50,046 bases of DNA, from IMG/VR virus record IMGVR_UViG_3300028800_000135, positions 1 through 50,046 of that record; one strand, written 5' to 3'. Under the pieces are notes generated by a model. It did not search any database. It was not told the DNA's origin and saw only the letters and a list, made by a program, of their open reading frames with translations. The position numbers and the translations under genes are program-made. The stretch is from a virus. Shown here piece after piece: positions 2,403 to 50,046 of this stretch; position 1 is the first letter of the stretch; each line of letters opens with the position of its first letter.

Positions 2403-2737
2403 TGAACCCGATCATTATTGGTGGAGTGCATTTTAGTTATCACGAAAAGAACCATCTTCGCAGCGATGAGGGCAATCGCCTCTTGGGGCAGATCGACTTC
2501 ACGCAGTCGACCATCACGACCGAAAAAAAGATAGCTGATGAAACAAGGCGAAAGGTCATTCTTCACGAAGTATTGCATGGCATCTTCGAACAGGCTGGCC
2601 TGCGTGAAGAAGAAGCCATCAAGAACGCCGGGGAGGAAGTCTTGATCGATATATTGGCCTATGGCTTCCTGAATGTTCTGCGCACTAACCCTGATCTGAT
2701 CAGGTTCTTACAAGAAACAACAGAGGGAGTTCAATAA
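2402..2737 (+). CDS. Small HExxH zinc metallopeptidase-like protein
   Basis: This 111-residue protein contains the zincin signature HEVLHGIF at about residues 56-63, followed by a Glu-rich helix and an Ile-Asp-Ile-Leu-Ala segment that could supply the third zinc ligand. Short HExxH proteins of this size are common in phages and resemble the ImmA/IrrE peptidase core, but there is no repressor gene beside it here. Substrate unknown. GAGG precedes the start, which overlaps the previous stop (TAATG). Confidence 0.7.
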   Translation: MNPIIIGGVHFSYHEKNHLRSDEGNRLLGQIDFTQSTITTEKKIADETRRKVILHEVLHGIFEQAGLREEEAIKNAGEEVLIDILAYGFLNVLRTNPDLIRFLQETTEGVQ

Positions 2738-31244: not shown

Positions 31245-32039
31245 TTAGTCTTGTGCTTCTGGAAAACAATTTACATTACAATGTGCGCAATATGCGCATA
31301 AATACCCAGCTTCCATTTCGGGCATCATGCCCATTTCTAATGAGCCTTGCAAAGCCTCCTTTCGGTCGATAACGTATGTTTCGATCTCTGCGTCAGTCAA
31401 GAGTTGCGCTTCCACCAGATAAGCTCCAAGGTGAGCGCCCTTGACAAAGCCGTTACAGACCGGGCACTTCAGTTCGCCGTCTACCCAACGCACTGGCACT
31501 CGGCACTTGCGGCATTTGGACGGGCCGGACATATCGATGTACTGGATCTGGAGCCGGTTGATTTCACGCCCCATCTTGCGAAGCATGTAGGCGTAGATGT
31601 TCACCTGCATGACGTGAGAGCCATACGGCAGCTTCTCGGGGTAGATCCAGCGCGTCGTTTTGATATCAACCAGTCGACCGTCCTTGTAGACGATGTCTGA
31701 CTTGCCGACCAACCCTTCCCAGGAGACTGGCAGCTCACTGTCGACCACTACATCAGAACCTTCGATGCCAGCGTGGACGGCAGTTCCCAACCAGCGGGTC
31801 AAGGTCTCATGGACAACCTCTGGAGCTGGATTGGTCTTATCCAGGAAGGACTTCCTGAGACAGCCGGTGATGTCGGTCACATGGACCTCGTTGCGCCGGC
31901 GTTCCTGCTCACTGCTGCTGAAGAGCGCCTTGAGTAAGGTATAGTCGAAGCCACACGGAGCGTGCTCTTCTTTCAGCGCGCAAGCCTTGCACGCTTCTGT
32001 TGTCATTACGCCTTTGCCGGCGGAACAAGTTATATTCAT
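31245..32039 (-). CDS. RecB/Cas4-like nuclease with Fe-S cluster
   Basis: This 264-residue protein carries a PD-(D/E)XK core: TAVHAGIEG with His89, GKSDIVY (Asp115), LVDIKTTRW (Asp125, Lys127) and a QVNIYAYML helix (Gln145). Cys60 (DITGCLRKSF) and a C-terminal CAYCAHCNVNC cluster suit a 4Fe-4S site as in Cas4 and AddB nucleases. An inserted zinc ribbon (CRKC and CPVC near 176-195) is extra. It would resect DNA ends for recombination with the ATPase next door. Start at 32039, after GGAGA, overlapping the membrane protein gene. Confidence 0.8.
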   Translation of the reverse strand: MNITCSAGKGVMTTEACKACALKEEHAPCGFDYTLLKALFSSSEQERRRNEVHVTDITGCLRKSFLDKTNPAPEVVHETLTRWLGTAVHAGIEGSDVVVDSELPVSWEGLVGKSDIVYKDGRLVDIKTTRWIYPEKLPYGSHVMQVNIYAYMLRKMGREINRLQIQYIDMSGPSKCRKCRVPVRWVDGELKCPVCNGFVKGAHLGAYLVEAQLLTDAEIETYVIDRKEALQGSLEMGMMPEMEAGYLCAYCAHCNVNCFPEAQD

Positions 32040-32584
32040 GCGTTCTCCGATGTGTAAGTTGGTTGAGTATGATTGCTCGGGACTGGCCGGGCCACTGGCG
32101 AGTAAGCTGATGTTCGGCGGGCCTGCGGTAAGATGCGCTGTCCGTTGATCATCCGGTCGAGCACGATGCCCATTGAGTAGATCAGCATGGCGCGCACGAG
32201 TAAGACGATCACTGCGATGACCAGCGGTATTGCGTAAGCCAGTCCTCGAATGGCGGCAGGCACAACGCCTCCAGTGGTCTCCATGGCTCGAGCGACGCCC
32301 CACCAAGTAAAGAAAGCGTTCCCGATAGCCACGATCACCCAGATGACCGCCAGTATTTTTACGAACAGCGGTTCATCGTCGTCGTTGGTTTGTGGTGTAG
32401 CAATCCGTGCAAGACCGCCGATGTCTACGGCGACCATGGCGAGCGCCAGTGAACCAGCCGTGATCCATTGGCCGATGGCCTGCGAGAGTGCCTGATAGGT
32501 AGTAGCGCCGTTGAAAATCTCAAATGCGACGCCTCCGATAATAAGTAGCCAGGAGAGTGCCCTGACGATGTTCTTGGGTTTCAT
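32036..32584 (-). CDS. Multi-span membrane protein
   Basis: This 182-residue protein has about four hydrophobic segments: residues 9-27, 40-58, 74-96 and 112-141. A soluble C-terminal tail rich in Pro, Thr and Ser follows. GGAGG precedes the ATG, and it overlaps both neighbours by four bases. No transporter signature is seen. A membrane protein inside a replication operon could anchor replication or alter host defence, but neither can be shown. Confidence 0.7.
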   Translation of the reverse strand: MKPKNIVRALSWLLIIGGVAFEIFNGATTYQALSQAIGQWITAGSLALAMVAVDIGGLARIATPQTNDDDEPLFVKILAVIWVIVAIGNAFFTWWGVARAMETTGGVVPAAIRGLAYAIPLVIAVIVLLVRAMLIYSMGIVLDRMINGQRILPQARRTSAYSPVARPVPSNHTQPTYTSENA

Positions 32585-33051: not shown

Positions 33052-33246
33052 CTACATCGCAAAAATATTGAATTCAAAGTCGAACTGCTGGCGCCAGTGA
33101 TGGTCGCAGTCCGAACAGACAAGATCCTGATAACCGTCGATCCCTTTGACCACCGGCGGACCTCCGGTGTATCTCGTGCTACCGCACTTTGGGCAGTTCA
33201 AGGTATTGCGGTAGCCCATCGGATACTTCTCTCTCATACGCATCAT
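33052..33246 (-). CDS. Small zinc-ribbon protein
   Basis: This 64-residue protein has two CxxC knuckles, CPKCGS and CSDCDHHW, in the same spacing as its downstream neighbour, so the two may be diverged duplicates. The start at 33246 overlaps the methyltransferase stop (ATGA); an alternative ATG at 33261 lies inside that gene. No clear ribosome site is present, so translation is probably coupled. Confidence 0.65.
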   Translation of the reverse strand: MMRMREKYPMGYRNTLNCPKCGSTRYTGGPPVVKGIDGYQDLVCSDCDHHWRQQFDFEFNIFAM

Positions 33247-34079
33247 TTCCCGGTGAGACATGACACACCGATCTTGAGGAGCTGATCTCTTTCGAGCTGG
33301 GCCTTGGGCTTCCTGAAGCCGATAGGCATTTTATCGATGGCTTCGTCAACAATGAAGTCGGCGAAAGCGACATCTGGAGCGGCGCCCTTCCACTGGCTCT
33401 TGAACTCGCTCAGGTCCAGGCTCTCTGGCATGATCGTCACTCCTGGGAAGACCGTCTTGAGGCGGTCGGCATTGGCGTTCTTGCGGGGCCTATTTCTTTT
33501 CAGGTCGTACTCCGTATCACCTTCGGGCACGATGAACATGCAGCCATTTGCTGATACACGGAAAGCGATCTCAGCGGCCATAAACTGCGCCGGCCCTTTG
33601 AAGGACATCCAGTCGGCCTCTTTCTTATTGGGGATGTTCCCATAAGGCGGATTGCCGATTGCGTAGTCGAACCTACCCAGGCTGGACACCAGCTCTTGGT
33701 CGAAGATCGAACCGCAGATCCAGGTAACTTCTGGCAGAAGGCGCTTGCCGATTTCAGCGAACTCGTTGTCGATTTCGACGGCTACGATCTCGGTGATCTG
33801 GCGGGGAGAGAACCGGTCATTCTCCAACAGCGCCCACGATAGCAAGCCAATACCAGCACATAGGTCGATGATCCTGCCATTGGGAGCTACCACCTGGGCG
33901 AAACTGCGGGCCATCTCGATGGGCGTGAAGAAGATGCCGCCTTTGCCGACGTCATGCGTCGCCATCGGGTTGAAGTTCTCCAGGCAGAACTCGATCTCAT
34001 CCTGCGTCAAGGTTTTGTCAGAATGTATCAGGTCCATGGCCTGGTCGTGCAGTTTGCTATCGGCTCTCGAAATTTTCAT
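33243..34079 (-). CDS. N6-adenine DNA methyltransferase
   Basis: This 278-residue class I methyltransferase has a GGIFFTP segment, SAM motif I IDLCAGIG (71-77 region) and catalytic motif IV NPPY (143-146). The order I then IV is that of gamma-type N6-adenine enzymes such as those in type I-like HsdM and solitary phage MTases. It would methylate adenine in DNA; the target site is unknown. No restriction subunit is nearby, so protection against host restriction is likely. Start at 34079, after GGAG, with an ATGA overlap to the helicase gene. Confidence 0.85.
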   Translation of the reverse strand: MKISRADSKLHDQAMDLIHSDKTLTQDEIEFCLENFNPMATHDVGKGGIFFTPIEMARSFAQVVAPNGRIIDLCAGIGLLSWALLENDRFSPRQITEIVAVEIDNEFAEIGKRLLPEVTWICGSIFDQELVSSLGRFDYAIGNPPYGNIPNKKEADWMSFKGPAQFMAAEIAFRVSANGCMFIVPEGDTEYDLKRNRPRKNANADRLKTVFPGVTIMPESLDLSEFKSQWKGAAPDVAFADFIVDEAIDKMPIGFRKPKAQLERDQLLKIGVSCLTGK

Positions 34080-35416
34080 CTTGGCTGCTCCAGAGTTTGA
34101 TAATCGCCGGTGGACTTGACCCACTTCACAAGAGAGGAAGGGCCTGTGCTGCCGTTGCGGTTCTTCTCAACATAAAACTTGACCGGCACTGCCTTTGGTC
34201 GATCAAGGACAACGCGACCGTTCACGTTCTCTGGGAACTGGCGCTTCTGCTCATCCGTAGGTTCTGTCCATACGCCTCTTGGGAAAACGACGATGGTCGC
34301 ATCCTGCTCGAGCGATCCACTGTCCCTCAGATCACTGAGCATCGGCTTACTGCCTGCACCACGCTTTTCGATCTCTCTGGACAGTTGCGCTGCCGCTATG
34401 CTTGGGATGCCCATACTCAAAGCGAAAGCTCGATACTGCTGGCTGGTCAGCGTAATGTCCTGCACCTTGTTTTCGATGCCGTTGCTGACAAGCTGGATGT
34501 AGTCAAGGATGACCAGCTTAGTGTGGTTCTCTACAGCATCCTTGCGAGCTACTCTCAGGATCTGATTGATCGATTGGCCGGGAACGTTATAGAGCTTCAG
34601 CGGAAGGCGAGCCAGATTTTGCGCCGCTCTCTTGATGCGCTCCAGTTCTTCTTCGGAAAGCTGGCGAGCATCTTTCATCCGGTCACTATCGATACCCGTT
34701 TCGAGCGCCAGGAAATTCCTGGCATACTCCATGGCGTCGTTCTCCAGATTGAAAATGGCGACTGGGTTGCCTTGATGTACGGCGGCCAATGCCTCATATC
34801 GAAGGAAAGAACTTTTCCCGTCACCTGGCCGACCTGCCACGAGAATGAAGTCGGACTTTTCTGCGAACCGGATCACATCACGAACCGCCTGGCATTTAGG
34901 CATCCAGGCTGGGAGATACTCACCTGCACGAATGGCATCAAGGCGGGGAAGAAAAACCCCCATGAGGTCTGAGAGGGTAATGCCCTTTTCTGGTGAGCTG
35001 CGTCGTAAAGCGAGGATCTTCTTCTCGGAGAAGTCCAGCAGTTCGTCGGTATCCACATGCTCATCTTTTGCCATACCGGCGATCAGAGCGGCGGAGAGCG
35101 TCACCTGCCGGCGAGTGCTCTCGTTTGTTATTTGATGGACATACTCGGAGACTTCGGCTCCGCGATAACCTAACATCTCAGCGACGAAGTCTTCCGGCCT
35201 TCCGGCGTCTGAATAGCGAGCGAAGTCTGGATTGGAGCGCAGAGCTTCGACCAAAGACCTTACACCCAAGCCGTTGCGATTGTGCAGGGCCAGCATCTCG
35301 CCCCAGGCGATCTGGCTGGCGCCGGTGAAGTCAGAGGGAACCAGATCGGCGGCCTCCTGCATGACCGCCGGATCTGAAAGAATTGAACCGATAAGGCATT
35401 TGTCCCAGTTTGTCAT
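34076..35416 (-). CDS. dnaB: Replicative DNA helicase, DnaB family
   Basis: This 446-residue protein has an N-terminal helical domain, a linker, and a RecA-fold C-terminal domain with Walker A GRPGDGKSS (195-203), a Glu-Asn-Asp segment, Walker B LVILDYIQLV (near 292-301) and the AAQLSREIEKR strand-helix of DnaB proteins. It would form a ring helicase that unwinds the phage fork together with the primase encoded at 43301. A dispersed palindrome (35200-35213) encodes Tyr-Ser-Asp-Ala-Gly. The gene overlaps its neighbours by four bases on each side. Confidence 0.9.
   Translation of the reverse strand: MTNWDKCLIGSILSDPAVMQEAADLVPSDFTGASQIAWGEMLALHNRNGLGVRSLVEALRSNPDFARYSDAGRPEDFVAEMLGYRGAEVSEYVHQITNESTRRQVTLSAALIAGMAKDEHVDTDELLDFSEKKILALRRSSPEKGITLSDLMGVFLPRLDAIRAGEYLPAWMPKCQAVRDVIRFAEKSDFILVAGRPGDGKSSFLRYEALAAVHQGNPVAIFNLENDAMEYARNFLALETGIDSDRMKDARQLSEEELERIKRAAQNLARLPLKLYNVPGQSINQILRVARKDAVENHTKLVILDYIQLVSNGIENKVQDITLTSQQYRAFALSMGIPSIAAAQLSREIEKRGAGSKPMLSDLRDSGSLEQDATIVVFPRGVWTEPTDEQKRQFPENVNGRVVLDRPKAVPVKFYVEKNRNGSTGPSSLVKWVKSTGDYQTLEQPR
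35200..35213. repeat. Palindromic repeat: TTCCGGCGTCTGAA
   Basis: Strict match in dnaB, encoding Tyr-Ser-Asp-Ala-Gly on the minus strand. Confidence 0.75.
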
Positions 35417-41753: not shown

Positions 41754-42224
41754 TCACTTCCCCATGATTTCATTGACGTCTTTGACTGCTTCGTTGAAGC
41801 TCTCGATGAACTCCTGCGCTGCCGCTCTCTTGGGGTTCGGGTTAGCGCGTTGGGCGCAGGTCGGGTAACGGTATTGGCGAGACGCCTTGCGGTAAAATTT
41901 GCACTTACGGCAGGCTGTCATCTTGACCGACACAACACCGGGCTTTACTTCCGCCCAAGAGGCGAGAAGCTCTGGATTGCGACACCATGTCGCCGGCCCT
42001 TTGACCAGGCGCATGTACTGTCCGCTGACCGTCTTAGACCAGAGGATGTAGCTTCCATCGGCGGCCATATCAGTGTGCCTGCCGTCCTTTGCTTCGAGTG
42101 ATGCTTTGACCTCTGGCGAAGGTTCGGCAAGTTCCCAGTGACCGGCGACCTTCTCAATCCGTCCGGCCAGGCGTTCGATGGCCCGCCGGTTTGTATCTCT
42201 GAAAAGCGATGCGAGTGTGCTCAT
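41754..42224 (-). CDS. Unknown 156-residue protein
   Basis: The start at 42224 overlaps the previous stop (TAATG). The N-terminal helix (LASLFRDTNRRAIERLAGRIEKV) is followed by Trp-rich strands and a cysteine cluster, CRKCKFYRKASRQYRYPTC, that could hold zinc with another Cys (TWC) upstream. The C-terminus is helical. No family recognised. Confidence 0.6.
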   Translation of the reverse strand: MSTLASLFRDTNRRAIERLAGRIEKVAGHWELAEPSPEVKASLEAKDGRHTDMAADGSYILWSKTVSGQYMRLVKGPATWCRNPELLASWAEVKPGVVSVKMTACRKCKFYRKASRQYRYPTCAQRANPNPKRAAAQEFIESFNEAVKDVNEIMGK

Positions 42225-42550
42225 TATTGCCCCATCAGGATCAAACAACTCAGTTGGCCTTCAGACATCTGAACGGGAGCCAGTTTATCGACAAGGCGCT
42301 CTTCTTCGAAGGCTTGATCTTCCTGATACTCATCTTCGTCGGGAACAGAGACCAGCTCTTCGTTGAAATCGCGGAACTTCCAGTCGATCAGATCGGTGCT
42401 ATCAGGGGAAGCGTGCTGCATGTGATCGGCCAGAAGGCCGTGCAACATATCCGCCGCGAAGGCCAGCCTGGCTTCTTTTGAGTTTATGGCCGTCGGATGG
42501 TCGCTTAGATCTACACAGATTTGTAGGTTGTAAATTACGGCGTTACGCAT
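42224..42550 (-). CDS. Unknown acidic protein
   Basis: This 108-residue protein is acidic in its middle (SVPDEDEYQEDQAFEEERL). GAGGAAG precedes the ATG, and it overlaps both neighbours. No family recognised; DNA-mimic proteins are acidic, but composition alone does not prove that. A palindrome (42260-42273) encodes Gln-Met-Ser-Glu near its end. Confidence 0.55.
   Translation of the reverse strand: MRNAVIYNLQICVDLSDHPTAINSKEARLAFAADMLHGLLADHMQHASPDSTDLIDWKFRDFNEELVSVPDEDEYQEDQAFEEERLVDKLAPVQMSEGQLSCLILMGQ
42260..42273. repeat. Palindromic repeat: TTCAGACATCTGAA
   Basis: Strict match near the 3' end of the acidic protein gene. Confidence 0.75.
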
Positions 42551-42869
42551 CGTCTTCCTCTTCGTCTATCAAGAGATCGCCGCCGGCTTCCACTTCATCT
42601 CTGGCCTGCTCGTAGCACGCTTCGGCACTATCCAGGGCGCACTTAGATATGGAGCTGATGACCGACAGGTCAGCGTAGTAAGTAGTGAGCTCGTGCATGT
42701 TGACCCGTTCCATCAGGGTGTATGCAGCCTCTCCGGCTTGGTTCAACAGACCGCAGATGTGGTCTAGCTCGTCGACGACCCTCTGGTCTATCTCGTCGAT
42801 ATCCCAGTCAGGACTGCGCTTGGTAAGCGGTTCTTTCTGCTCTTCGGTATATTCGTTATCGTGGCTCAT
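42543..42869 (-). CDS. Unknown acidic helical protein
   Basis: This 108-residue protein starts at 42869 after GAGGAAC and is helical and acidic (DWDIDEIDQRVVDELDHIC), ending in a run of acidic residues (LIDEEEDDA). No family recognised. Together with its downstream neighbour it forms an acidic pair. Confidence 0.55.
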   Translation of the reverse strand: MSHDNEYTEEQKEPLTKRSPDWDIDEIDQRVVDELDHICGLLNQAGEAAYTLMERVNMHELTTYYADLSVISSISKCALDSAEACYEQARDEVEAGGDLLIDEEEDDA

Positions 42870-43092
42870 TGGGTTCCTCTGTGTTGTCTGGAAATATGCT
42901 CTCCCCGTCGGGGTCGTTGTCGTAGTCCATGGTCCGATAATTCGCATCATCCGGCAGACCGTTTACACCCTGAAGAACGCCTCCCAGAATGACGACCTCG
43001 AACATCGGCTTGCCATTTCGATAGCGACGCACGAGATCGTACAGTGGATCGCCTGGCGCTACGATAAACACGCCTTCTTGTTTTTTACCCAT
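42856..43092 (-). CDS. Unknown 78-residue protein
   Basis: GGAGG precedes the ATG at 43092, which overlaps the previous stop by eight bases. It has a beta strand (GVFIVAPGDPLYDLVRRYRNG) and an acidic tail. No family recognised. Confidence 0.55.
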   Translation of the reverse strand: MGKKQEGVFIVAPGDPLYDLVRRYRNGKPMFEVVILGGVLQGVNGLPDDANYRTMDYDNDPDGESIFPDNTEEPNEPR

Positions 43093-43297
43093 TGACTGCC
43101 TCCAGTTCTTCCTTCCAGTAGAGAGCGACATCGGCGCCGAAAGATACCATGATGTGCGGGTCATCCGGCTTGCTACTGCCGGCATCCCACTGCAAGCTAA
43201 CGACGGTTCCAATCCGTCTCTTGCGATGAACCTTTACCCGATCCCCATACTGGAACGGCGCTCCTTCAATCTTCTTTACCAACGCTACGTCTACCAT
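43085..43297 (-). CDS. Small SH3-like beta-barrel protein
   Basis: This 70-residue protein has alternating strands, FQYGDRVKVHRKRRIGTVVSLQWD and PHIMVSFGADVALYWKEEL, like a small SH3-like or Tudor-like barrel. The pattern Gly-Asp-x-Val-x-Val followed by Gly-Thr-Val-Val is typical of such folds. It follows the primase gene by four bases and could bind nucleic acid, but this is inference. Confidence 0.6.
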   Translation of the reverse strand: MVDVALVKKIEGAPFQYGDRVKVHRKRRIGTVVSLQWDAGSSKPDDPHIMVSFGADVALYWKEELEAVNG

Positions 43298-43300
43298 TAT

Positions 43301-44206
43301 TTATTCTTCGCTCCATTTTCTAAGTGTTTCGGCTGCCGCTTCGGGATCAGCCAGAATGTACTTGTCAATGTCTTGAAACTCTTCAGGCGGAAACACCAAC
43401 TTTGCCGTGAAGAATTTAGCGCGCGTATCGCCCAACACTCTGCCGGGTGCATCGTTGTCGCCTATCACAACCACATTGGCGAGAGCCAGTGCAGTGCGCC
43501 AGCTATCCAGATAACTGCCTTCGCCGCCAGTCGGAGCACAAACATTGAAGCCCATCTGATCGATGATCATGGCCGGGATTTCGCCCTTGACGACAAAGAC
43601 CGTCCCTGTCTCAAGATAAATCTTGTCCCAGTTGAACAATGTCTTGATCGAACCAGCCTGCGACCAGAAGCGACGAGCTTTGGTGCAGTCCCTGAAGCTG
43701 CGGAACTTGATGCCCATCAACCGGCCATCCTGAAAGGCCGGGATTGCCATATAACTGTCTTTCTGGCCGATCCTGAATTTCTTGATACTCGCATCAGTGA
43801 TACCCCGAGTGTGAGCGTACTCAACCACCTCTCTGCTGGGGGGAATGAAGTTCATCCATTCGTCGCCGGCTAACCGTATGGTCTTCTCTGGTATAACCAG
43901 CTTGACTTCATACCTGCTGTCAAGAAGCCCAAGAGCCTCACGCACTTTGTCGGGGTCCCTTGGGTTATAGCCGGGTACTCTCAGATATCCGACCAGATCG
44001 ACGACGTCGCCTTCTCGCTGGCAGCTCCCATGACATTTCCACCACTGGAGACCTTTCCGCCAATAAATCGAGAACGACGGCGTGTTTGACACATGCGTAT
44101 GGCCTGGCAGTGGGCAAACGATCACTCGTTTGTTATCGCTCAGGCCCAGCACGCTGCGGATGTCGTGCGTGGATCTGGCCGTCTCGAGATCGTCTTTTAG
44201 GGTCAT
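43301..44206 (-). CDS. DnaG-type DNA primase
   Basis: This 301-residue protein has an N-terminal CHC2-type zinc finger (Cys31, His36, Cys58, Cys62) and a TOPRIM-like domain with VFVVKGEIPAM (Glu motif) and VVIGDNDAPGR (Asp-x-Asp motif). It would lay RNA primers for lagging-strand synthesis with the DnaB helicase encoded at 34076. It is shorter than bacterial DnaG and lacks a C-terminal helicase-binding domain. GAGGAAAC precedes the ATG. Confidence 0.85.
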   Translation of the reverse strand: MTLKDDLETARSTHDIRSVLGLSDNKRVIVCPLPGHTHVSNTPSFSIYWRKGLQWWKCHGSCQREGDVVDLVGYLRVPGYNPRDPDKVREALGLLDSRYEVKLVIPEKTIRLAGDEWMNFIPPSREVVEYAHTRGITDASIKKFRIGQKDSYMAIPAFQDGRLMGIKFRSFRDCTKARRFWSQAGSIKTLFNWDKIYLETGTVFVVKGEIPAMIIDQMGFNVCAPTGGEGSYLDSWRTALALANVVVIGDNDAPGRVLGDTRAKFFTAKLVFPPEEFQDIDKYILADPEAAAETLRKWSEE

Positions 44207-44214
44207 GTTTCCTC

Positions 44215-44228
44215 TTCAGGCGCCGGAA
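44215..44228. repeat. Palindromic repeat: TTCAGGCGCCGGAA
   Basis: Strict match over the stop codon and last codons of the DnaJ-type zinc-finger gene, directly after the primase start region. Confidence 0.75.
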
Positions 44229-44443
44229 GGGATGTCGTGGTTGGGGTTGCATTTCGGGCAAGGGATGATGTTGAAGTCCTTGTCGATAATTTTGCTTACT
44301 CCCTTGCACTCTGGGCAGATCGGGCTGATATCCGTCCAGCCCCCGCCGTCGTAACCCGTCCAGTGCTCTTGCTTTTTGCCGCATGTTTCACACATGCGGC
44401 GATTGCCACCATAGATCCACTTGTGAAAGTGAAATATGCCCAT
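44216..44443 (-). CDS. DnaJ-type zinc-finger protein
   Basis: This 75-residue protein has three CxxC-type pairs, CETCGKK, CPECKG and CPKC, resembling the cysteine-rich domain of DnaJ without a J domain. AGAGGCATAGG precedes the ATG. It may bind unfolded protein or nucleic acid. A palindrome (44215-44228) covers its last codons and stop. Confidence 0.65.
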   Translation of the reverse strand: MGIFHFHKWIYGGNRRMCETCGKKQEHWTGYDGGGWTDISPICPECKGVSKIIDKDFNIIPCPKCNPNHDIPSGA

Positions 44444-44444
44444 C

Positions 44445-44666
44445 CTATGCCTCTGTTCCTGCCAATACCCCAAGCACAAAGACGATAGCCAGGATAATTA
44501 TGATCAGAGCGATCCAGCCTGGAGTAAAGACCAGCCACCAGGACCAGGCAATCACCTTGCAGGCTTTCAGCACGAACAAGACGAGCTGAACGAGCAGAAG
44601 CCATCCACCTGCTCCGAGCGTTACCTTCGTCGTTGTTTTATTTACTACTTCGATTTGCGTACCCAT
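44445..44666 (-). CDS. Small two-span membrane protein
   Basis: This 73-residue protein starts at 44666 after AAGGAG and has two long hydrophobic helices (residues about 18-44 and 48-70) separated by a short Trp-rich turn, FTPGW. No family recognised. Small early membrane proteins of phages often mediate superinfection exclusion, which is only a possibility here. A palindrome lies in its leader at 44683-44696. Confidence 0.6.
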   Translation of the reverse strand: MGTQIEVVNKTTTKVTLGAGGWLLLVQLVLFVLKACKVIAWSWWLVFTPGWIALIIIILAIVFVLGVLAGTEA

Positions 44667-44682
44667 AGTGTTCTCCTTTAGC

Positions 44683-44696
44683 TTCAGATGTCGGAA
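44683..44696. repeat. Palindromic repeat: TTCAGATGTCGGAA
   Basis: Strict match in the leader of the small two-span membrane protein gene, upstream of its ribosome site. Confidence 0.75.
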
Positions 44697-44700
44697 GACG

Positions 44701-45030
44701 TTATTTCGTAGGTTCGACAGGCGGCATATCTGGGAATTCGTAGACTGGAATACCCTTCTTCTTGGCGTAATTGAACTCGAGAACTGTGCCAATGCTACTT
44801 TGCCAGTCCGGTACCAGCACCATGGCGTCGCAACGCGACAGCATAACGAGGTCGCCTTCCAGGTAGACCTCATCAGCGACGTTGCAGCACAATTCAAAAT
44901 GCGCCGTGTTCAGGTGCGGGCAGAGTGCGATATGACCGTGTTCCCATAACGCGATAGCTACCTTGCGAGCTTCGTCGATGTTGTGAGTGACATTTCCACG
45001 ATAAGGTCCTGCTACATAACAAAGAAGCAT
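44701..45030 (-). CDS. Deoxyribosyltransferase-like protein (DUF4406-like)
   Basis: This 109-residue protein starts at 45030 after GGAGG. It reads LLCYVAGPYRG at the first strand, then NIDEARKVAIALWEHGH and a CPHLNT segment, the pattern of the nucleoside 2-deoxyribosyltransferase-like superfamily (DUF4406). A later strand, DAMVLVPDWQSSIGT, is also typical. Members cleave N-glycosidic bonds of nucleotides, but many phage forms are uncharacterised. Confidence 0.75.
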   Translation of the reverse strand: MLLCYVAGPYRGNVTHNIDEARKVAIALWEHGHIALCPHLNTAHFELCCNVADEVYLEGDLVMLSRCDAMVLVPDWQSSIGTVLEFNYAKKKGIPVYEFPDMPPVEPTK

Positions 45031-45049
45031 CTCTACCTCCAATAAGATA

Positions 45050-45075
45050 TGCCTGCCCGGTTTCCCAGGCAGGCA
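45050..45075 (-). promoter_or_regulatory. Intercistronic hairpin
   Basis: TGCCTGCC (45050-45057) pairs with GGCAGGCA (45068-45075) around a ten-base loop, without a clear T-run. It lies between two early genes and may stabilise or attenuate the operon transcript. Confidence 0.5.
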
Positions 45076-45085
45076 GTTGATTTCG

Positions 45086-45331
45086 CTAGAACGCATCCAG
45101 GATGACCGGCCTCTTGGATACCAGCCGGATCATCTCGAGCATCATCGATGACGGGTTTTGATAGTAAACGCCGCCTTCTTTGGTTTTGAAGTGCCACATA
45201 TCCTCAGCACCAGCAGGATTGAAGGCCGCTCCCCCCGGAACGTGAAGAACTTCAGCCTCCTGGTTTTGGCCGTCGGCATAACATACTAAGACCTGATCCC
45301 CCTCTTCGATATACTCATCTAACTTTCGCAT
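45086..45331 (-). CDS. Unknown 81-residue protein
   Basis: CAGGAGAG precedes the ATG at 45331. The protein is beta-rich, with EEGDQVLVCYADGQNQEAEVLHV and an aromatic YYQNP segment. The sequence resembles small carbohydrate- or RNA-binding barrels only loosely. No family recognised. Confidence 0.55.
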   Translation of the reverse strand: MRKLDEYIEEGDQVLVCYADGQNQEAEVLHVPGGAAFNPAGAEDMWHFKTKEGGVYYQNPSSMMLEMIRLVSKRPVILDAF

Positions 45332-45353
45332 TATCCCTCTCCTGGAATAAAAT

Positions 45354-45656
45354 TTAGACGTCCATACAGTCGTGCCGAGCGGGCCTGAATGATCGTAGGA
45401 GATCCCCGATATCTGCCAAACTACGAACCGGATAGGAAGCGACCTCCATGCCGCAAACAGCACAAAAACCCATCATTCTCAAAGCTCGATCCGAGTACGT
45501 AAAGGTCGAGCCGTCAAGTATTACCTGCCCCTTCTCAGGTATTGTTTCAACCGGATAGTCTTCGATCTTTTCCTTGGCGTTGGCGAAGATTTCCTTCAGC
45601 CGGGTCATGGTTTCGTCGGAGACTTCCTTTTTACCGATATCTGCAAGTGACTTCAT
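45354..45656 (-). CDS. Unknown protein with a CxxC pair
   Basis: This 100-residue protein starts at 45656 overlapping the previous stop (ATGA), with AAGGAG about ten bases upstream. It has an N-terminal helix (TRLKEIFANAKEKIEDYP) and a CAVCGME pair near residue 66, with another His/Cys near the end (RHDCMDV). A repeated word, SLADIG, occurs at residues 3-8 and 79-84. No family recognised. Confidence 0.55.
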   Translation of the reverse strand: MKSLADIGKKEVSDETMTRLKEIFANAKEKIEDYPVETIPEKGQVILDGSTFTYSDRALRMMGFCAVCGMEVASYPVRSLADIGDLLRSFRPARHDCMDV

Positions 45657-45889
45657 TTGAACAGTTCTCCTTGAAGCTGCCGACTTTCCATAGCTCTTGC
45701 TACCATAGGGACGCCGGCATATTTCTTGAAGTTGGACAAGACCCAGACTTTGCGGTTGCCGTCAAAGACGCAGTCCTTTGGCTCGAAGGTGGCGTGGATC
45801 TGTGCCAGGTCCATCTGGAACCCTCTGATTGTCTTCGCATTGACCTTGATCTCGGCATGAGTGTCGAAGATGGTCACGTTGAGTGCCAT
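45653..45889 (-). CDS. Unknown 78-residue protein
   Basis: GGAGG lies just before the ATG at 45889, which overlaps the stop of the upstream gene. The protein has strands (ALNVTIFDTHAEIKVNAKTI) and a C-terminal helix. No family recognised. It is downstream of the ubiquitin-like cassette in the same operon. Confidence 0.55.
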   Translation of the reverse strand: MALNVTIFDTHAEIKVNAKTIRGFQMDLAQIHATFEPKDCVFDGNRKVWVLSNFKKYAGVPMVARAMESRQLQGELFK

Positions 45890-46143
45890 TACTCCTCCCT
45901 GATATAGTTGTTGTCTTCGGCCCATTCTTCGAGCTGCGAGCGGTCAAAGATGTCTTCCGGTCTCAAGTTGGCGATGACGACTTTGTTGTGATCCTGAACC
46001 CATTCGATCAGCTCTTTGTCGGTGTAGACATCACCAGGAGCGCAGTTCTCTTGTACCCACTGCTTCAGCGTGTCTTGCTCAAATATTTGTTGAGGTTCGA
46101 GCTGCGAGACTACGGCGACGATTTCATCGGTTATATTTTGCAT
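45889..46143 (-). CDS. Small protein with three internal repeats
   Basis: This 84-residue protein contains three related helical units of about 20-26 residues: IFEQDTLKQWVQEN, VYTDKELIEWVQDH and IFDRSQLEEWAEDN. Each has the form aromatic, x5-6, Leu, x2, Trp, x3, Asn/His. It is directly downstream of the E1-like gene with seven bases between. Function unknown; it could be a substrate or adaptor of the conjugation system by position. Confidence 0.6.
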   Translation of the reverse strand: MQNITDEIVAVVSQLEPQQIFEQDTLKQWVQENCAPGDVYTDKELIEWVQDHNKVVIANLRPEDIFDRSQLEEWAEDNNYIREE

Positions 46144-46150
46144 AATGCAC

Positions 46151-46795
46151 CTATGGGATCACTGTCAGAACGTGCTTGCGCATGTTGAAGATCTGAATTT
46201 TGGGCTGCCATTCGCCGACCACGATGTTTTTGACGGCAGAACCGATCAGGCCGCCTGCGATCAAGGCACAGTAAAACGTTGCCTTCATGGTGCAGGGCAC
46301 GTCAGCCACGCCTGTTTCGCTCTCTCCGGCCAGCATCTGGTCATACCAGCCATAGTCGTCCATCGAAACGGTGAACAAGTGCATCTCTTCTGCCGCCATT
46401 CTGGCGTCCATGTACCAGCGCACTTTGCTGTACTTGACCGTTTGCCAGATCTCTTTGCGAGCCGTGATGCTGTCGACGGCGGAGATGATGAACTGAGATG
46501 CCAAAGTGGTCGTGTGATCGACCCGTTCCATGTGATCCCAGACATCGGTGTCATCCGAGAACTCTGCGATCACATCGGCGAGAGCGGCGACCTTTGGCCT
46601 TCCGACGTCTGAAAGCCGGTGGAGCTGGGTGGCGAGATTGACATCGTCGACCGTGTCTCCATCGTAAACATTCAAAAAGCGGACGCCCATCTTGGCGAGA
46701 GCCAGGGCAGTGGTTGCCCCAATTCCGCCGGCTCCGATCAGGGTAATACTGACATTCGAAACATCAAAAAGCTCCATGTGGCGAGTGTGTATCAT
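46151..46795 (-). CDS. E1/ThiF-like adenylyltransferase
   Basis: This 214-residue enzyme has the E1/MoeB/ThiF layout: nucleotide loop GAGGIGA (21-27), YDGDTVD (Asp45, Asp47), NLATQLH (Asn53), Lys68 (GRPKVA), the ISAVDS strand end with Asp108, and Cys168 in DVPCTM as candidate thioester cysteine. It would adenylate the C-terminal Gly-Gly of the ubiquitin-like protein and pass it on. It is short, lacking extra domains, like ThiF of PRTRC cassettes. AAAGGTG precedes the ATG. It is transcribed after the JAB gene with three bases between. A palindrome (46600-46613) encodes Leu-Ser-Asp-Val-Gly. Confidence 0.85.
   Translation of the reverse strand: MIHTRHMELFDVSNVSITLIGAGGIGATTALALAKMGVRFLNVYDGDTVDDVNLATQLHRLSDVGRPKVAALADVIAEFSDDTDVWDHMERVDHTTTLASQFIISAVDSITARKEIWQTVKYSKVRWYMDARMAAEEMHLFTVSMDDYGWYDQMLAGESETGVADVPCTMKATFYCALIAGGLIGSAVKNIVVGEWQPKIQIFNMRKHVLTVIP
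46600..46613. repeat. Palindromic repeat: TTCCGACGTCTGAA
   Basis: Strict match in the E1-like gene, encoding Leu-Ser-Asp-Val-Gly, before the conserved-looking Lys68. Confidence 0.75.
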
Positions 46796-46798
46796 TGG

Positions 46799-47620
46799 TT
46801 ACACCTTTTTTCCGTGCGTGATCTGCTTATTCAAAAGATCCTGAACTTCACCGAAGTCCACGTTGATATACTGAGAGGCCGGCGATCCAAAAGTGGAATG
46901 ATGCTGTTCGGCTTCTTGGAAGCCCTCTTCCTCGTCTTCCTCTTCGTCGAACTCCAGGGCTAACAGCTTGTCCTGAATTTCTTCGATCTCGTCATAGCGG
47001 CCACCTTCGAACATGCGCTGGACTTTTTCGTAGGTCGTTCCGACTTTTTTGAGATCGGCGTCTTCCATCATGTCGACCATCTCTTGGTAATACTCAGCCT
47101 CGCCAAGCGTCTCTCGCCAGTCGCCCTGTTGGAAAGCGGCTTTTACTGGCCGAATGGCGGCGACATCTTGATAAACGCCAGCCAGTTGAGGAAAAACCTC
47201 CAGATGCCTGGTCTCATGCTTGATGTGGTTATCGATCCGACCAACCCAGCCATGAGGCGTCAGCACAATGGCAACCGACCAACGCACCATCTCTGGGATG
47301 CCCCCGAGCGGCTCCTTAGTGGCAGTTGTCTCATCCCTGTAGGACCAGTTCTCCGGTCCAGGAATTCCACTTCCCAAAGGATGCCGGTGTAGCCATACCT
47401 TCATGTTCTTGCTATCAGACCGATCCATCAGCTTCAGCAGAAGATCGGTCGGGATCTCGGTATAAACCGTGTTGCCAATATTGCAGAGCACAAAGTCATA
47501 AACGACGATGTCTTCGCCCTTGATCTTGCAGAAGCCCATTCCTGAAAACTCCTGCGGCGCCGTGGCATTGGCAATCGCCAGCAGCTTGATCATCAGTGGA
47601 TCTTCGATCACTATCCTCAT
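46799..47620 (-). CDS. JAB/JAMM metallopeptidase
   Basis: This 273-residue protein has the JAMM active site: Glu24 (PQEFSGMG), HRHP with His78 and His80, and Ser93-x-x-Asp96 (NWSYRDE). Such enzymes cleave after a terminal Gly-Gly, either maturing the precursor modifier or removing it from targets. The C-terminal half adds a helical region and an acidic stretch (EFDEEEDEEEG). The start overlaps the E2-like stop (ATGA) with GGAGATC upstream. Confidence 0.85.
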   Translation of the reverse strand: MRIVIEDPLMIKLLAIANATAPQEFSGMGFCKIKGEDIVVYDFVLCNIGNTVYTEIPTDLLLKLMDRSDSKNMKVWLHRHPLGSGIPGPENWSYRDETTATKEPLGGIPEMVRWSVAIVLTPHGWVGRIDNHIKHETRHLEVFPQLAGVYQDVAAIRPVKAAFQQGDWRETLGEAEYYQEMVDMMEDADLKKVGTTYEKVQRMFEGGRYDEIEEIQDKLLALEFDEEEDEEEGFQEAEQHHSTFGSPASQYINVDFGEVQDLLNKQITHGKKV

Positions 47621-48381
47621 AAGATCTCCTTTGCGAAAGGATAATTCGCCGTGCCGATTGAAGATGTCAGCAGGGAATTGCCGTTATAACGCCCCAGATA
47701 AACGTACAGGGTGCGGAAAAGTTCAACGATATCGGCGGCCTGTCTGAGCGAATTGATGATCGGGCCGAACGAACCCCAGCAGGTCTTGGACTGCCACCAG
47801 TAAGACGAACTGGTCTCTTTACCGGCGTGATGGTGCGGATGCCGGGCATAATAACTGTTCTCCATGGAGACCGGGACAAAGTGCCAATAGCCTTCGCCCT
47901 TTGCTCCCGCCAGGAGATCGATAGGAACCATAACCTTGTAGCAGCCCATGTCCCACTTGGCAGTATGGATTTCGTAGGTGGGCTTCCTGGTTGGCCTTCT
48001 GACGCGTATTTCGTTTTCCAGAGTGACTGGCTTGGTGATCCCCACCAGATAGCGGTAGATATGAGGTTCTGTAGTCAGCGTATCTGAACCAAACAAAGTA
48101 GAAGAAATCGTCGCTTTGAAGCCTTCGATTTCCTCAAGCCTGAATTCGGTATAAGGCAGAGCGCGCAGGCGAGTTACAAAAGCATCCAAGCCGTCGCCTT
48201 TGATGATCTGACTGTGAGCCATGACGACCGGACCCATGTCTTTCATGAAGCACTTTCGCTGAATACCATCCAGGAACTCTGCGTCGTTCTTGATGGTCAT
48301 GATTTTGTTGTGTGAAATCTTGGTTACTTCCTGCATAAAATCGCTGGAAATGGTTGTTCTCGGAGCCGTAATTTTGATCAT
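47617..48381 (-). CDS. E2-like conjugating protein
   Basis: This 254-residue protein is recognised mainly by context and a C-terminal domain of about 100 residues. That domain has HPHHH (181-185) followed 16 residues later by KTCWGSF with Cys201 as candidate catalytic cysteine, then a helix, ADIVELFRTLYVYLG, and an Asn. This spacing mirrors the His-Pro, Cys and helix pattern of prokaryotic E2-like proteins, including the PRTRC B type. The N-terminal 120 residues are not recognised. GGAGG lies before the ATG, and a terminator separates it from the upstream modifier gene. Confidence 0.65.
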   Translation of the reverse strand: MIKITAPRTTISSDFMQEVTKISHNKIMTIKNDAEFLDGIQRKCFMKDMGPVVMAHSQIIKGDGLDAFVTRLRALPYTEFRLEEIEGFKATISSTLFGSDTLTTEPHIYRYLVGITKPVTLENEIRVRRPTRKPTYEIHTAKWDMGCYKVMVPIDLLAGAKGEGYWHFVPVSMENSYYARHPHHHAGKETSSSYWWQSKTCWGSFGPIINSLRQAADIVELFRTLYVYLGRYNGNSLLTSSIGTANYPFAKEIL

Positions 48382-48395
48382 AAATTCCTCCCTGC

Positions 48396-48425
48396 AAAAA
48401 AACGGGGCAGAGTTTCCCCTGCCCC
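48396..48425 (-). terminator. Terminator between modifier and E2-like genes
   Basis: Read on the minus strand, GGGGCAG (48425-48419) pairs with CTGCCCC (48410-48404) around an eight-base loop, followed by G and T7. It lies after the ubiquitin-like gene and before the E2-like gene, so part of the transcripts should end there. Confidence 0.85.
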
Positions 48426-48431
48426 TGTTTC

Positions 48432-48445
48432 TTCAGATGCCTGAA
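48432..48445. repeat. Palindromic repeat: TTCAGATGCCTGAA
   Basis: Strict match, intergenic, between the modifier gene stop and its terminator. Confidence 0.78.
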
Positions 48446-48448
48446 CGA

Positions 48449-48817
48449 CTAGCGAGCGCCGCCTTTGACGCTGCCGATGATGTTCAGGGTCGAGCCAGCC
48501 GGGACGATGTCGGCGCCCTGGATCTGCACGCCGTTCAGGAAGACGGTGTATTCGCCTTCGAAGCGCAGACCGGATGACAGCATGACCTGGGACAAGCTCT
48601 TGGGGCCATCGACCGGCACGTAGCGGTTGTCGCCGCCAGAAGTGCGGATGGTGACGACCTGATCTGGATCAGGCACGAAGCCAGCTTCCTCGGTCTCGCC
48701 GATGAAGTCGTTCAGTTCGCTGTCTTCAGCGGTTTCTTCGGTCTGCTCGGCGGAAGTTTCTTCGGGTTCTTCGCCTTCGAACGGATTGGTGTTGTTGTCG
48801 AATTCTTCGATTGCCAT
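48449..48817 (-). CDS. Ubiquitin-like modifier protein
   Basis: This 122-residue protein has an acidic, disordered N-terminal arm (1-50) and a beta-grasp-like domain (about 52-118): VVTIRTSGGDNRYVPV, a helix SLSQVMLSSG, YTVFLNGVQIQ and STLNIIGSVKGGAR. The end, Gly119-Gly120-Ala-Arg, matches a modifier precursor whose last two residues would be removed by the JAB peptidase to expose Gly-Gly. It is comparable to the small PRTRC protein C and ThiS-type folds, with a longer N-terminal arm. AAAGGAG precedes the ATG. It is the first gene after a consensus promoter. Confidence 0.75.
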   Translation of the reverse strand: MAIEEFDNNTNPFEGEEPEETSAEQTEETAEDSELNDFIGETEEAGFVPDPDQVVTIRTSGGDNRYVPVDGPKSLSQVMLSSGLRFEGEYTVFLNGVQIQGADIVPAGSTLNIIGSVKGGAR

Positions 48818-48847
48818 GGTGTTACTCCTTTTCTTGGGGGTAGATAG

Positions 48848-48876
48848 ATTTTACGATATAATGCCACATTTGTCAA
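48848..48876 (-). promoter_or_regulatory. Promoter of the modifier gene and early operon
   Basis: On the minus strand TTGACA (48876-48871), a 17-base spacer and TAAAAT (48853-48848) make a consensus-like promoter, leading directly to the ubiquitin-like gene. GTCAA/TTGAC inverted repeats at 48872-48885 overlap its -35 box. Confidence 0.82.
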
Positions 48877-48908
48877 TCGTTTGACTGATATTTGCATCAA
48901 TCAATTGT

Positions 48909-48937
48909 TTGCTTTTTGTGTCATTTTCGTTTATAAT
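48909..48937 (+). promoter_or_regulatory. Promoter of the probable terS gene
   Basis: TTGCTT (48909-48914), a 17-base spacer and a perfect TATAAT (48932-48937) point rightward to the gene at 48969. It is divergent from the modifier promoter. Confidence 0.75.
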
Positions 48938-48968
48938 ATTATTGCCGTTAGGCATTATTGGAGGGTCT

Positions 48969-49649
48969 ATGGAAGACGAGCCAACGTTGAAAACTCGCAA
49001 ACGCGGGTCATATAAAAATCAAAATGGCGAGAACGAGATCGTCGTCACTGGCGTTCTCGCAGACCGCATGATCGGCGGTAAGCGCCGGATGCAGTTGACC
49101 AAGGCAGAGCGCAGAGAACTAAAGCACAATCGCCTGGTCGAGAAAGCTGTCTCCTTATTTTTGGATATCGAGCAACCGCACTCTTGGAAAGAGATGGCGC
49201 TCGAACTGGGTATCTCGCAGCCAGCGCTCAAGGATCTGACAAAGACCCAGGAGTTTATGGATGCTTACTCTGCTTTTTATGTAGAGCTGGGTCATGATCC
49301 CCGCTTGAAAGCGTCGCAGGCTGCGGTTGCTGACATGCTGCCGACTGCCATCAATGCGCTGAAGACCATGTTATCCAGTTCCGCCACACGAGACACAGTC
49401 AAACTCAACATCATTCGGGAAGTGATCAAGCTGAATGGGATGGGTGCTCCTGAAACGAAGAACAACGACCGCCAAGAGCTGGCTGACTTCTTGAAAGGAG
49501 CCGGTGTCAACATCGAGAACATGAATGTGGCTGTGCCGCCGGACTACCTGAAGCACATGGCTAACGATGTCGTTGATGGGCAAGTTCGAGACGTGCCCGA
49601 TAGTCCCGCTCTCTCAGAAGGTTCTGAAGAAGAAACAGACGAGCCGTAG
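48969..49649 (+). CDS. terS: Probable terminase small subunit
   Basis: This 226-residue protein starts at 48969 after GGAGGG; an earlier in-frame ATG at 48909 overlaps the promoter. A basic N-terminal region is followed by a helix-turn-helix (SWKEMALELGISQPALKDL) and helices typical of phage TerS proteins (ASQAAVADMLPTAINALKTML), ending with an acidic tail (SEGSEEETDEP). It would recognise the packaging site. If the genome is circular, TerL lies about 5 kb ahead. A generic DNA-binding regulator is the alternative. Confidence 0.65.
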   Translation: MEDEPTLKTRKRGSYKNQNGENEIVVTGVLADRMIGGKRRMQLTKAERRELKHNRLVEKAVSLFLDIEQPHSWKEMALELGISQPALKDLTKTQEFMDAYSAFYVELGHDPRLKASQAAVADMLPTAINALKTMLSSSATRDTVKLNIIREVIKLNGMGAPETKNNDRQELADFLKGAGVNIENMNVAVPPDYLKHMANDVVDGQVRDVPDSPALSEGSEEETDEP

Positions 49650-50046
49650 TGTACTTCTCCAGCCTTGCTCGTTCGTGATTGTCCTTGCACAAGTCTTTTC
49701 GATCTTCGTAGTCTTTCTTGACACGCTCCATGCAAACTTCCAGGGGCGTGTCGAATTCTATATAGACCAAGTTATAGCCGTGGTATTCCGAGTAGTGCTC
49801 GATCCACTTGCGCTGGAACGAGCCTTCTTTGAAATAGGCTTCAACCACAAAGCTGTCGCCCTTTTCGAGCACCGGAACGATTTTCTCCAAGAGCATTGTG
49901 AAGGCCCGCTGGGGATCGATATCGCTGTTCTCAGCATAGATATCGGCGACATCAAAGGAAGGCAGATCTTTCAGCTTGGGATCGTTCAGACGCCGGAAGG
50001 TCTTCCCCGCTCCAGAGGGTCCAGAGAGAGCGTAAAGAGTTTTCAT
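49561..50046 (-). CDS. P-loop kinase-like protein
   Basis: This 161-residue protein begins Met-Lys-Thr-Leu-Tyr-Ala-Leu-Ser with the Walker A loop GPSGAGKT at residues 9-16. It resembles small nucleotide or polynucleotide kinases, with VVEAYFKEG and a strand VYIEFDTPLEVCMERV. The palindrome at 49985-49998 falls immediately after the loop and encodes Phe-Arg-Arg-Leu-Asn. The 3' end overlaps the probable terS gene by 89 bases in convergent orientation. The start codon is the last base triplet of the window, so the upstream ribosome site is not seen. Confidence 0.75.
   Translation of the reverse strand: MKTLYALSGPSGAGKTFRRLNDPKLKDLPSFDVADIYAENSDIDPQRAFTMLLEKIVPVLEKGDSFVVEAYFKEGSFQRKWIEHYSEYHGYNLVYIEFDTPLEVCMERVKKDYEDRKDLCKDNHERARLEKYTTARLFLLQNLLRERDYRARLELAHQRHR
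49985..49998. repeat. Palindromic repeat: TTCAGACGCCGGAA
   Basis: Strict match in the kinase gene directly after the Walker A codons. Confidence 0.75.

Follow-up and report, generated by a model that had tools for sequence, protein, structure and literature searches.

A four-gene cassette predicted to run ubiquitin-like protein conjugation in the replication gene row of a tailed phage

Gene organization of the cassette

The subject of this analysis is a row of four consecutive genes in a stretch of viral DNA of 50,046 bases, IMG/VR record IMGVR_UViG_3300028800_000135, positions 1 to 50,046 (the window, by which the whole stretch is meant). The genes encode a putative ubiquitin-like (Ubl) modifier, an E2-like conjugating enzyme, a metalloprotease of the JAMM/JAB type and a minimal E1 adenylating enzyme, referred to below as UBL, E2, JAB and E1. 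The window belongs to a tailed phage, in which genes for TerL, a portal, a major head protein, a DnaB helicase and an integrase were identified; the integrase indicates that it may be temperate. The cassette lies on the minus strand and in the order of transcription reads promoter, UBL, terminator, E2, JAB and E1; several small genes and then a DNA primase come next. Its features are the following:

48848-48876, minus strand: sigma-70-type promoter-like site, TTGACA-17-TAAAAT, agreeing with the consensus at 11/12 positions
48449-48817, minus strand: UBL, putative modifier precursor of 122 residues (AlphaFold2 beta-grasp model, Foldseek, VIA, conservation of Gly119-Gly120)
48396-48425, minus strand: intrinsic terminator in the UBL/E2 gap, a 9-bp GC-rich stem followed by a T-run
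47617-48381, minus strand: E2-like conjugating enzyme of 254 residues (conservation in orthologues, hhalign, family profile against the PDB)
46799-47620, minus strand: JAMM/JAB metalloprotease of 273 residues (invariant catalytic residues, hhalign, Rpn11 profile match)
46151-46795, minus strand: minimal E1 (ThiF/UBA5-like adenylating enzyme) of 214 residues (Pfam ThiF, UBA5 profile match)

Shine-Dalgarno-like sequences precede all four open reading frames (ORFs); the E2 and JAB genes share 4 bases, and 3 bases lie between JAB and E1. The original prediction, made from the letters of the DNA, had placed the four ORFs at these positions on the minus strand and had singled out the end of UBL, the HPHHH motif and Cys201 of E2, the residues E24, H78, H80, S93 and D96 of JAB, and the GAGGIG loop and Cys168 of E1. 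Both the coordinates and the residues proved correct. Within the cassette, the profile libraries Pfam, NCBIfam and PHROGs named E1 alone and gave nothing useful for E2 and UBL. Conservation was examined in syntenic orthologues from three related loci (L011, L090 and L092) for all four proteins, with a fourth locus (L010) added for E1. The Gly-Gly end of UBL, the His and Cys residues of E2, the JAMM residues and C168 of E1 are invariant in this set, which argues that they are not there by chance.

The Ubl modifier

The C-terminus of UBL reads SVKGGAR (G119, G120, A121, R122). In its AlphaFold2 (AF2) model, an acidic disordered N-terminus (residues 1-50) precedes a beta-grasp domain from residue 51 to approximately 118 and a flexible tail, VKGG-AR, with a predicted local distance difference test score (pLDDT) of about 75-93 by block over residues 51-120. 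Foldseek matched the model with a probability of 1.00 to ubiquitin, NEDD8 and ThiS-type proteins. By VIA, residues 53-120 align to residues 1-76 of ubiquitin with Z scores of 8-9, so that Gly120 falls on Gly76 of ubiquitin. In these comparisons the fold matches ThiS, MoaD, TtuB and SAMP as well as ubiquitin. The expectation that the 122-residue protein would be a beta-grasp protein with a terminal Gly-Gly conserved among homologues was thus upheld: the two glycines are invariant in 14/14 aligned phage Ubls, and they are also present in the syntenic orthologues, whose true start codons probably lie further downstream than the longest-ORF starts on which the alignments are based. The residues that follow the Gly-Gly in the 14 proteins vary in number from 0 to 3 and in kind (AR, none, SVA, none, IH, none, R, N, KI, NK, L, C, L and RK). 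Variable residues behind an invariant Gly-Gly are what a modifier precursor would show.

Ubls of the crAss type carry a (V/I)(K/R/A)SG motif followed by 53-217 further residues, mostly more than 75 (e.g., L003:1855-2511), an extension that would have to be cut off before use. These extended proteins resemble ubiquitin fusion precursors. Two other loci (L014:7136-7609 and L121:3444-3860) contain Ubl genes that encode two domains in tandem, each with a Gly-Gly motif at its end, as in BilA or ISG15.

The E1, JAMM and E2-like proteins

E1 matched the Pfam ThiF family (1.3e-21) and carries its GAGGIG loop at residues 21-26. Among curated families it is closest to ThiF/MoeB-type models, and its sequence contains neither a rhodanese domain nor CxxC pairs. 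When a profile of 11 phage E1s was compared with the PDB, UBA5 ranked first (4.4e-18), followed by bacterial and eukaryotic E1s including BubCD. UBA5 is the small E1 of UFM1. Cys168-Thr169 is invariant in 11/11 phage E1s, and C168 is also found in the four related loci; the protein is therefore an E1/ThiF-like enzyme with a Gly-rich loop and a conserved Cys, as had been predicted. In a tree of E1s the phage proteins stood apart from host and PRTRC E1s with a support of 91 (SH-aLRT, an approximate likelihood-ratio test), which is below star level, and a single origin of the phage E1s is accordingly not claimed. A scan of genomes for hosts gave, among the matches listed, only weak ThiF/MoeB-like matches from cellular genomes.

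The assignment of JAB as a JAMM peptidase was likewise borne out, with a nuance in spacing: besides E24, the residues H78, H80, S93 and D96 are arranged as HxHx12SxxD, a longer loop that is kept in the orthologues, whereas HxHx7SxxD, the common spacing, is found in phage JABs more widely. The window protein also has an acidic C-terminal region. Aligned by hhalign, the window group and the canonical phage JABs matched with a probability of 98.3 (E 1.1e-14), and the canonical profile in turn matched an Rpn11-like protein (2.5e-8) and an RPN11 chain of the 26S proteasome (1e-7) in the PDB, both ahead of CSN5.

The window E2 carries H181-P-H183-H-H and a candidate catalytic residue, Cys201, within TCWG. 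H181, H183, H184, C201 and W202 are common to this protein and its four aligned relatives, one of which is a paralogue from L011, and no invariant His follows C201 in the alignment. The paralogue, as it probably is, is encoded by a second E2-like gene with HYHH and TCWA (L011:3097-3846) directly before the E2 gene proper. In the wider phage family the motif is HPH(V/I/L), a short loop and then C(W/L/F)G. The window-group E2s aligned with these canonical phage E2s in hhalign with a probability of 97.2 (E 2.9e-11), the two sets having no sequences in common; a further comparison, of profiles A5 and A11, was not used, as shared sequences inflate its score. Profile A11, built from 30 catalytic domains (27 from the wider phage family and 3 from the window group), had UBE2L3 as its best PDB match (6.1e-5), followed by UBE2N and others. 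The 60 matches listed are all of E2 type except three of ribosomal L13, and the two L3A2-1 rows at ranks 3-4 are presumably UBE2L3 variants, judging by name. The alignment to eukaryotic E2s spans the whole UBC domain and places HPH on HPN and Cys on Cys. The sequence evidence is therefore strong that the 254-residue protein is a member of the UBC/E2 family, as the prediction had required. This phage family, recognizable by HPH-CWG, is not modelled by Pfam, NCBIfam or PADLOC.

Expression layout

The promoter-like site is the best such match within positions 42000-50046 and lies roughly 30 bases upstream of the start codon of UBL. At each of the three syntenic loci a site of the form TTGACA-17-TATACT, matching 11/12 positions, was found 24-61 bases before the UBL start. 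The terminator between UBL and E2 has a folding energy of -26 kcal/mol (z -4.6). Approximately 14 bases separate its T-run from the E2 start codon, too few to hold a promoter. Across 95 dereplicated loci, a terminator was detected within 120 bases upstream of E2 in 48, of E1 in 3 and of JAB in 1. Since the stretches upstream of JAB and E1 are mostly coding, dinucleotide shuffles of the regions upstream of E2 are the fairer control, and these gave 6.4 terminators on average against the 48 observed. This layout suggests that the tag would be produced in larger amounts than the enzymes, whose expression would depend on read-through of the terminator.

Distribution among phages and neighbouring genes

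Two scans of IMG/VR with E1 profiles, of which the best 80 of 112 and the best 80 of 149 matches were kept, yielded at least 152 viral loci with a related E1; all locus counts are hence lower bounds. A JAB gene lies upstream in 117 of the 152, and 115 have a gene in the E2 position; several of the loci that lack one or the other are cut by contig ends. Searching viral contigs with the single sequences of UBL, E2, JAB and E1 gave no matches, whereas the E1 profile scans did. The block Ubl, E2, JAB, E1 was found in Flavobacterium phage FpV4, bajarodcaudo virus 1 and crAss-like phages such as DAC15 and cr85_1, and the gene table of Dulem virus 41 indicates the same arrangement. In annotated phages the existing labels of the block are hypothetical proteins, metalloprotease domain, and 'thiamine biosynthesis protein ThiF' or the like. 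The cultured jumbo phage PhiXhv-12 of Xanthomonas (L180:1748-5624) encodes a Ubl ending in KASGG, an E2-like protein of 892 residues with HPH...CLG, and an E1.

The original prediction had put the cassette among early phage genes, and its position beside replication genes is borne out by a primase in the same gene row. The other features near the cassette are:

43301-44206, minus strand: DNA primase (PHROG 47, 1.7e-19; dnaG model, 2.2e-4)
45653-45925, minus strand: small conserved protein of 90 residues, function unassigned, syntenic in related phages
48909-49649, plus strand: terminase-small-subunit-like gene, divergent from UBL (PHROG 24579, 1.4e-4)

A primase follows the cassette in all four related loci of the window group. 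In crAss-like phages the block stands beside a primase, a uracil-DNA glycosylase and an exonuclease; at loci L128-L161 an AAA ATPase and a primase-DnaB helicase adjoin it, and a D5-type helicase (L111) and RecA (L117) were found elsewhere. The small protein between E1 and the primase has counterparts of 85-100 residues at the four related loci; those of L010, L011 and L090 cluster together, and neither the window protein nor the L010 copy had a Pfam match. A gene similar to the terminase-like neighbour, with the motif LGHDPRLKASQ, is present in L011, and its family also occurs in L090, L092 and L150. At L012:6675-7505 a ParB_N-domain gene adjoins the cassette, which recalls the ParB-ThiF pairing behind the name PRTRC, and at L013:6917-9436 a gene for an AAA+ unfoldase, named ClpE-like from a reading of its Cys-rich N-terminus, lies shortly downstream of a complete cassette. 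Elsewhere in the window are two DNA methyltransferase genes (2737-3816, PHROG 116; 33243-34124, PHROG 3820), a gene matching PHROG 1706, 'CRISPR/Cas system associated' and possibly a Cas4-like nuclease (31245-32306), and a DUF4406/nucleoside 2-deoxyribosyltransferase-like protein (44701-45096).

Proposed mechanism and alternative explanations

In our judgement the best explanation, to which we assign a probability of roughly three in four, is that the phage itself runs a complete, reversible and stoichiometrically tuned Ubl-conjugation cycle. From what sequence, conservation or modelling shows of the parts, their catalytic residues, the neighbourhood, the terminator and the conserved Gly-Gly end, we infer these steps: (i) a strong promoter would drive UBL, and the terminator behind it would pass part of the transcription, so that the tag is in excess over the enzymes; (ii) the JAMM protease would trim the last residues, Ala-Arg, and expose the Gly-Gly; (iii) the minimal E1 would adenylate Gly120 with ATP and then form a thioester, probably on Cys168; (iv) the tag would move to Cys201 of E2, beside the HPH motif; (v) E2 would join it to an amino group of a target protein, most likely of a lysine, with no dedicated E3; and (vi) the JAMM protease would take the tag off again. 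Because the cassette sits in the replication row of several unrelated phage groups, replication proteins of the phage, or host proteins that meet them, are the most likely targets.

Several results weigh against this interpretation. Foldseek with the AF2 model of the whole window E2 (pLDDT 84, predicted template modelling score 0.82) matched no E2. The model has three added N-terminal helices, and it is mostly to these that its Foldseek and VIA matches were made; the sole near-full-length VIA match was to the UEV domain of Tsg101 at a weak Z of 4.0. The assignment of the window E2 hence rests on the family profile, in which 3 of 30 rows come from the window group. No E3 was found for the phage cassette. 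In PhiXhv-12 there was no JAB among the neighbour genes read, and in L010, which is closely related to the window phage (E1 48% identical), neither E2 nor JAB nor UBL could be detected across a contig of 60.8 kb that may be incomplete.

The rival that fares best, though we regard it as unlikely, is counter-defence, in which the cassette would tag and disable immune or restriction proteins of the host or interfere with a host Ubl pathway. It is favoured by the location among probable early genes and by the small size of the enzymes, cytoplasmic proteins that could act on any host protein, and it may overlap with the phage-run cycle, which commits to no particular target. Blocking a host pathway would nonetheless require less than a full reversible cycle with a tag of its own, and the analysis turned up no connection to any particular defence.

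Less likely again is a role in defence or superinfection exclusion, by which a temperate phage would tag parts of its competitors as Bil does. The known bacterial cassettes of this kind, Bil and CBASS, are anti-phage (PMC12355090; PMC11354881), and the integrase would suit such a lifestyle. The cassette, however, lies within the replication row and is a standard block in crAss-like phages, Flavobacterium phages and others rather than a variable accessory locus, and PADLOC gave matches for the window E1 alone, with none for E2, JAB or UBL. A sulfur-carrier pathway, in which E1 would turn UBL into a thiocarboxylate that serves as a sulfur source for the thiolation of tRNA or nucleobases, while no protein is conjugated, is improbable: the ThiF/MoeB-type affinity of E1 and a UBL fold that fits ThiS, MoaD, TtuB and SAMP as well as ubiquitin are outweighed by the UBC-type E2 (HPH and Cys) in the same row of the great majority of intact loci, by an E1 that has no rhodanese domain or CxxC pairs and is matched best in the PDB by the protein-conjugating UBA5, and by a JAB family that matches the deubiquitinase Rpn11.

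Should the phage-run cycle be confirmed, it would mean that phages tag proteins on their own account, with a complete set that stands within a replication gene block and whose parts resemble UBA5, UBC enzymes and Rpn11 of eukaryotes in profile comparisons. Protein tagging may then be a widespread and largely overlooked phage tool, and a gene block of crAss-like gut phages that is now largely 'hypothetical' would gain a concrete, testable function. More tentatively, we propose as a possibility that tailed phages widely possess reversible Ubl tagging as a core function, housed in replication modules with an HPH-CWG E2, an Rpn11-like protease and a tag-excess terminator, and controlling the replisome or host takeover; the ClpE-like unfoldase beside the cassette in one lineage raises the question of tag-directed turnover. 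Cultured phages with related sets, among them Bacteroides phages such as DAC15 (grown on Bacteroides thetaiotaomicron) and those of the PhiCrAss type, would then make the target question directly approachable, and the larger pool of viral relatives would be of use to work on the origin of ubiquitin signalling. A literature search found no paper on phage-encoded sets; most subscription journals were outside its coverage, and an earlier mention is possible.

Comparison with known systems

Complete sets of E1, E2, Ubl and JAMM protease have been described in eukaryotes, in some archaea and, among bacteria, on plasmids and in defence operons. With the ubiquitin and UFM1 cascades of eukaryotes the phage cassette shares the same four activities by profile (a UBA5-type E1, a UBE2L3/UBE2N-type E2 and an Rpn11 JAMM protease beside the modifier). 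HPx and Cys of the E2 are in register, the JAMM residues are present, the E1 is minimal as in UBA5, and the modifier is a beta-grasp Ubl with a Gly-Gly end. It differs in having HPH in place of HPN, an E1 of 214 residues, four genes in one row and a disordered acidic N-terminus on UBL.

The original prediction had pointed to PRTRC, Bil and CBASS. The comparison was apt as an idea, but membership does not hold, as features that define these systems are lacking. The plasmid-borne PRTRC operon (proteins C, B, A and ThiF; type 6d of Iyer et al. 2006, PMC1779556) has the same relative order of Ubl, E2, JAB and E1, and PRTRC ThiF proteins were the only matches when the window E1 was compared with plasmids by tblastn. 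The profile check that had been proposed did not support membership: the NCBIfam models of PRTRC A, B and C had no match among the window proteins, and PRTRC_ThiF scored 50.6 bits on the window E1, far under its cut-off of 144.75 bits. The PRTRC E2 has no upstream His and a conserved His after its Cys (PMC1779556), unlike the phage E2, in which the invariant H181 and H183 precede C201. In hhalign the PRTRC-B and phage E2 families do not align (two PRTRC sequences only), and no direct profile match links the window E2 to the crAss E2 or to PRTRC-B; for its homology to either of the two, gene order and the His/Cys motif are hence the only arguments. Neither ParB nor PRTRC E or F genes were seen among the scanned window genes around the cassette, some small ORFs lying outside the scan.

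Bil (BilA-D) also comprises four genes for Ubl, E2, JAB and E1. However, BilB has a CEHH motif after its Cys, BilA two Ubl domains, and BilD an inactive and an active adenylation domain together with a Cys domain (PMC11354881), whereas the phage E2 has no CEHH after its Cys, its UBL a single domain and its E1 a single domain of 214 residues. The Cap2/Cap3 proteins of CBASS and the E1-E2 fusions of Bub share the E1-type adenylation domain, E2 and JAMM activities with the cassette, in which, unlike these, E1 (214 residues) and E2 (254 residues) are separate polypeptides and the tag is a beta-grasp protein; no nucleotidyltransferase, as in CBASS, was recognised in the gene row. Phage-encoded Ub-like domains are found with JAB/NlpC in the tail proteins I and K of lambda and T1 (PMC1779556), which differ in having no E1 or E2 and in their tail-assembly location. 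ThiS/MoaD sulfur-carrier systems differ from the cassette by its E2-family gene, and of their partners (rhodanese, thiazole and molybdopterin genes) none was found among the scanned window genes. Membership in PRTRC, Bil, CBASS/Bub or the sulfur-carrier systems was rejected, as the cassette lacks at least one tested defining feature of each.

The general features of Ubl conjugation, by contrast, appear from sequence and modelling to be all present: a Gly-Gly beta-grasp modifier, an E1 with its Cys, an E2-family protein and a JAMM protease. On present evidence, the cassette is a phage variant of the ubiquitin-type conjugation pathway.

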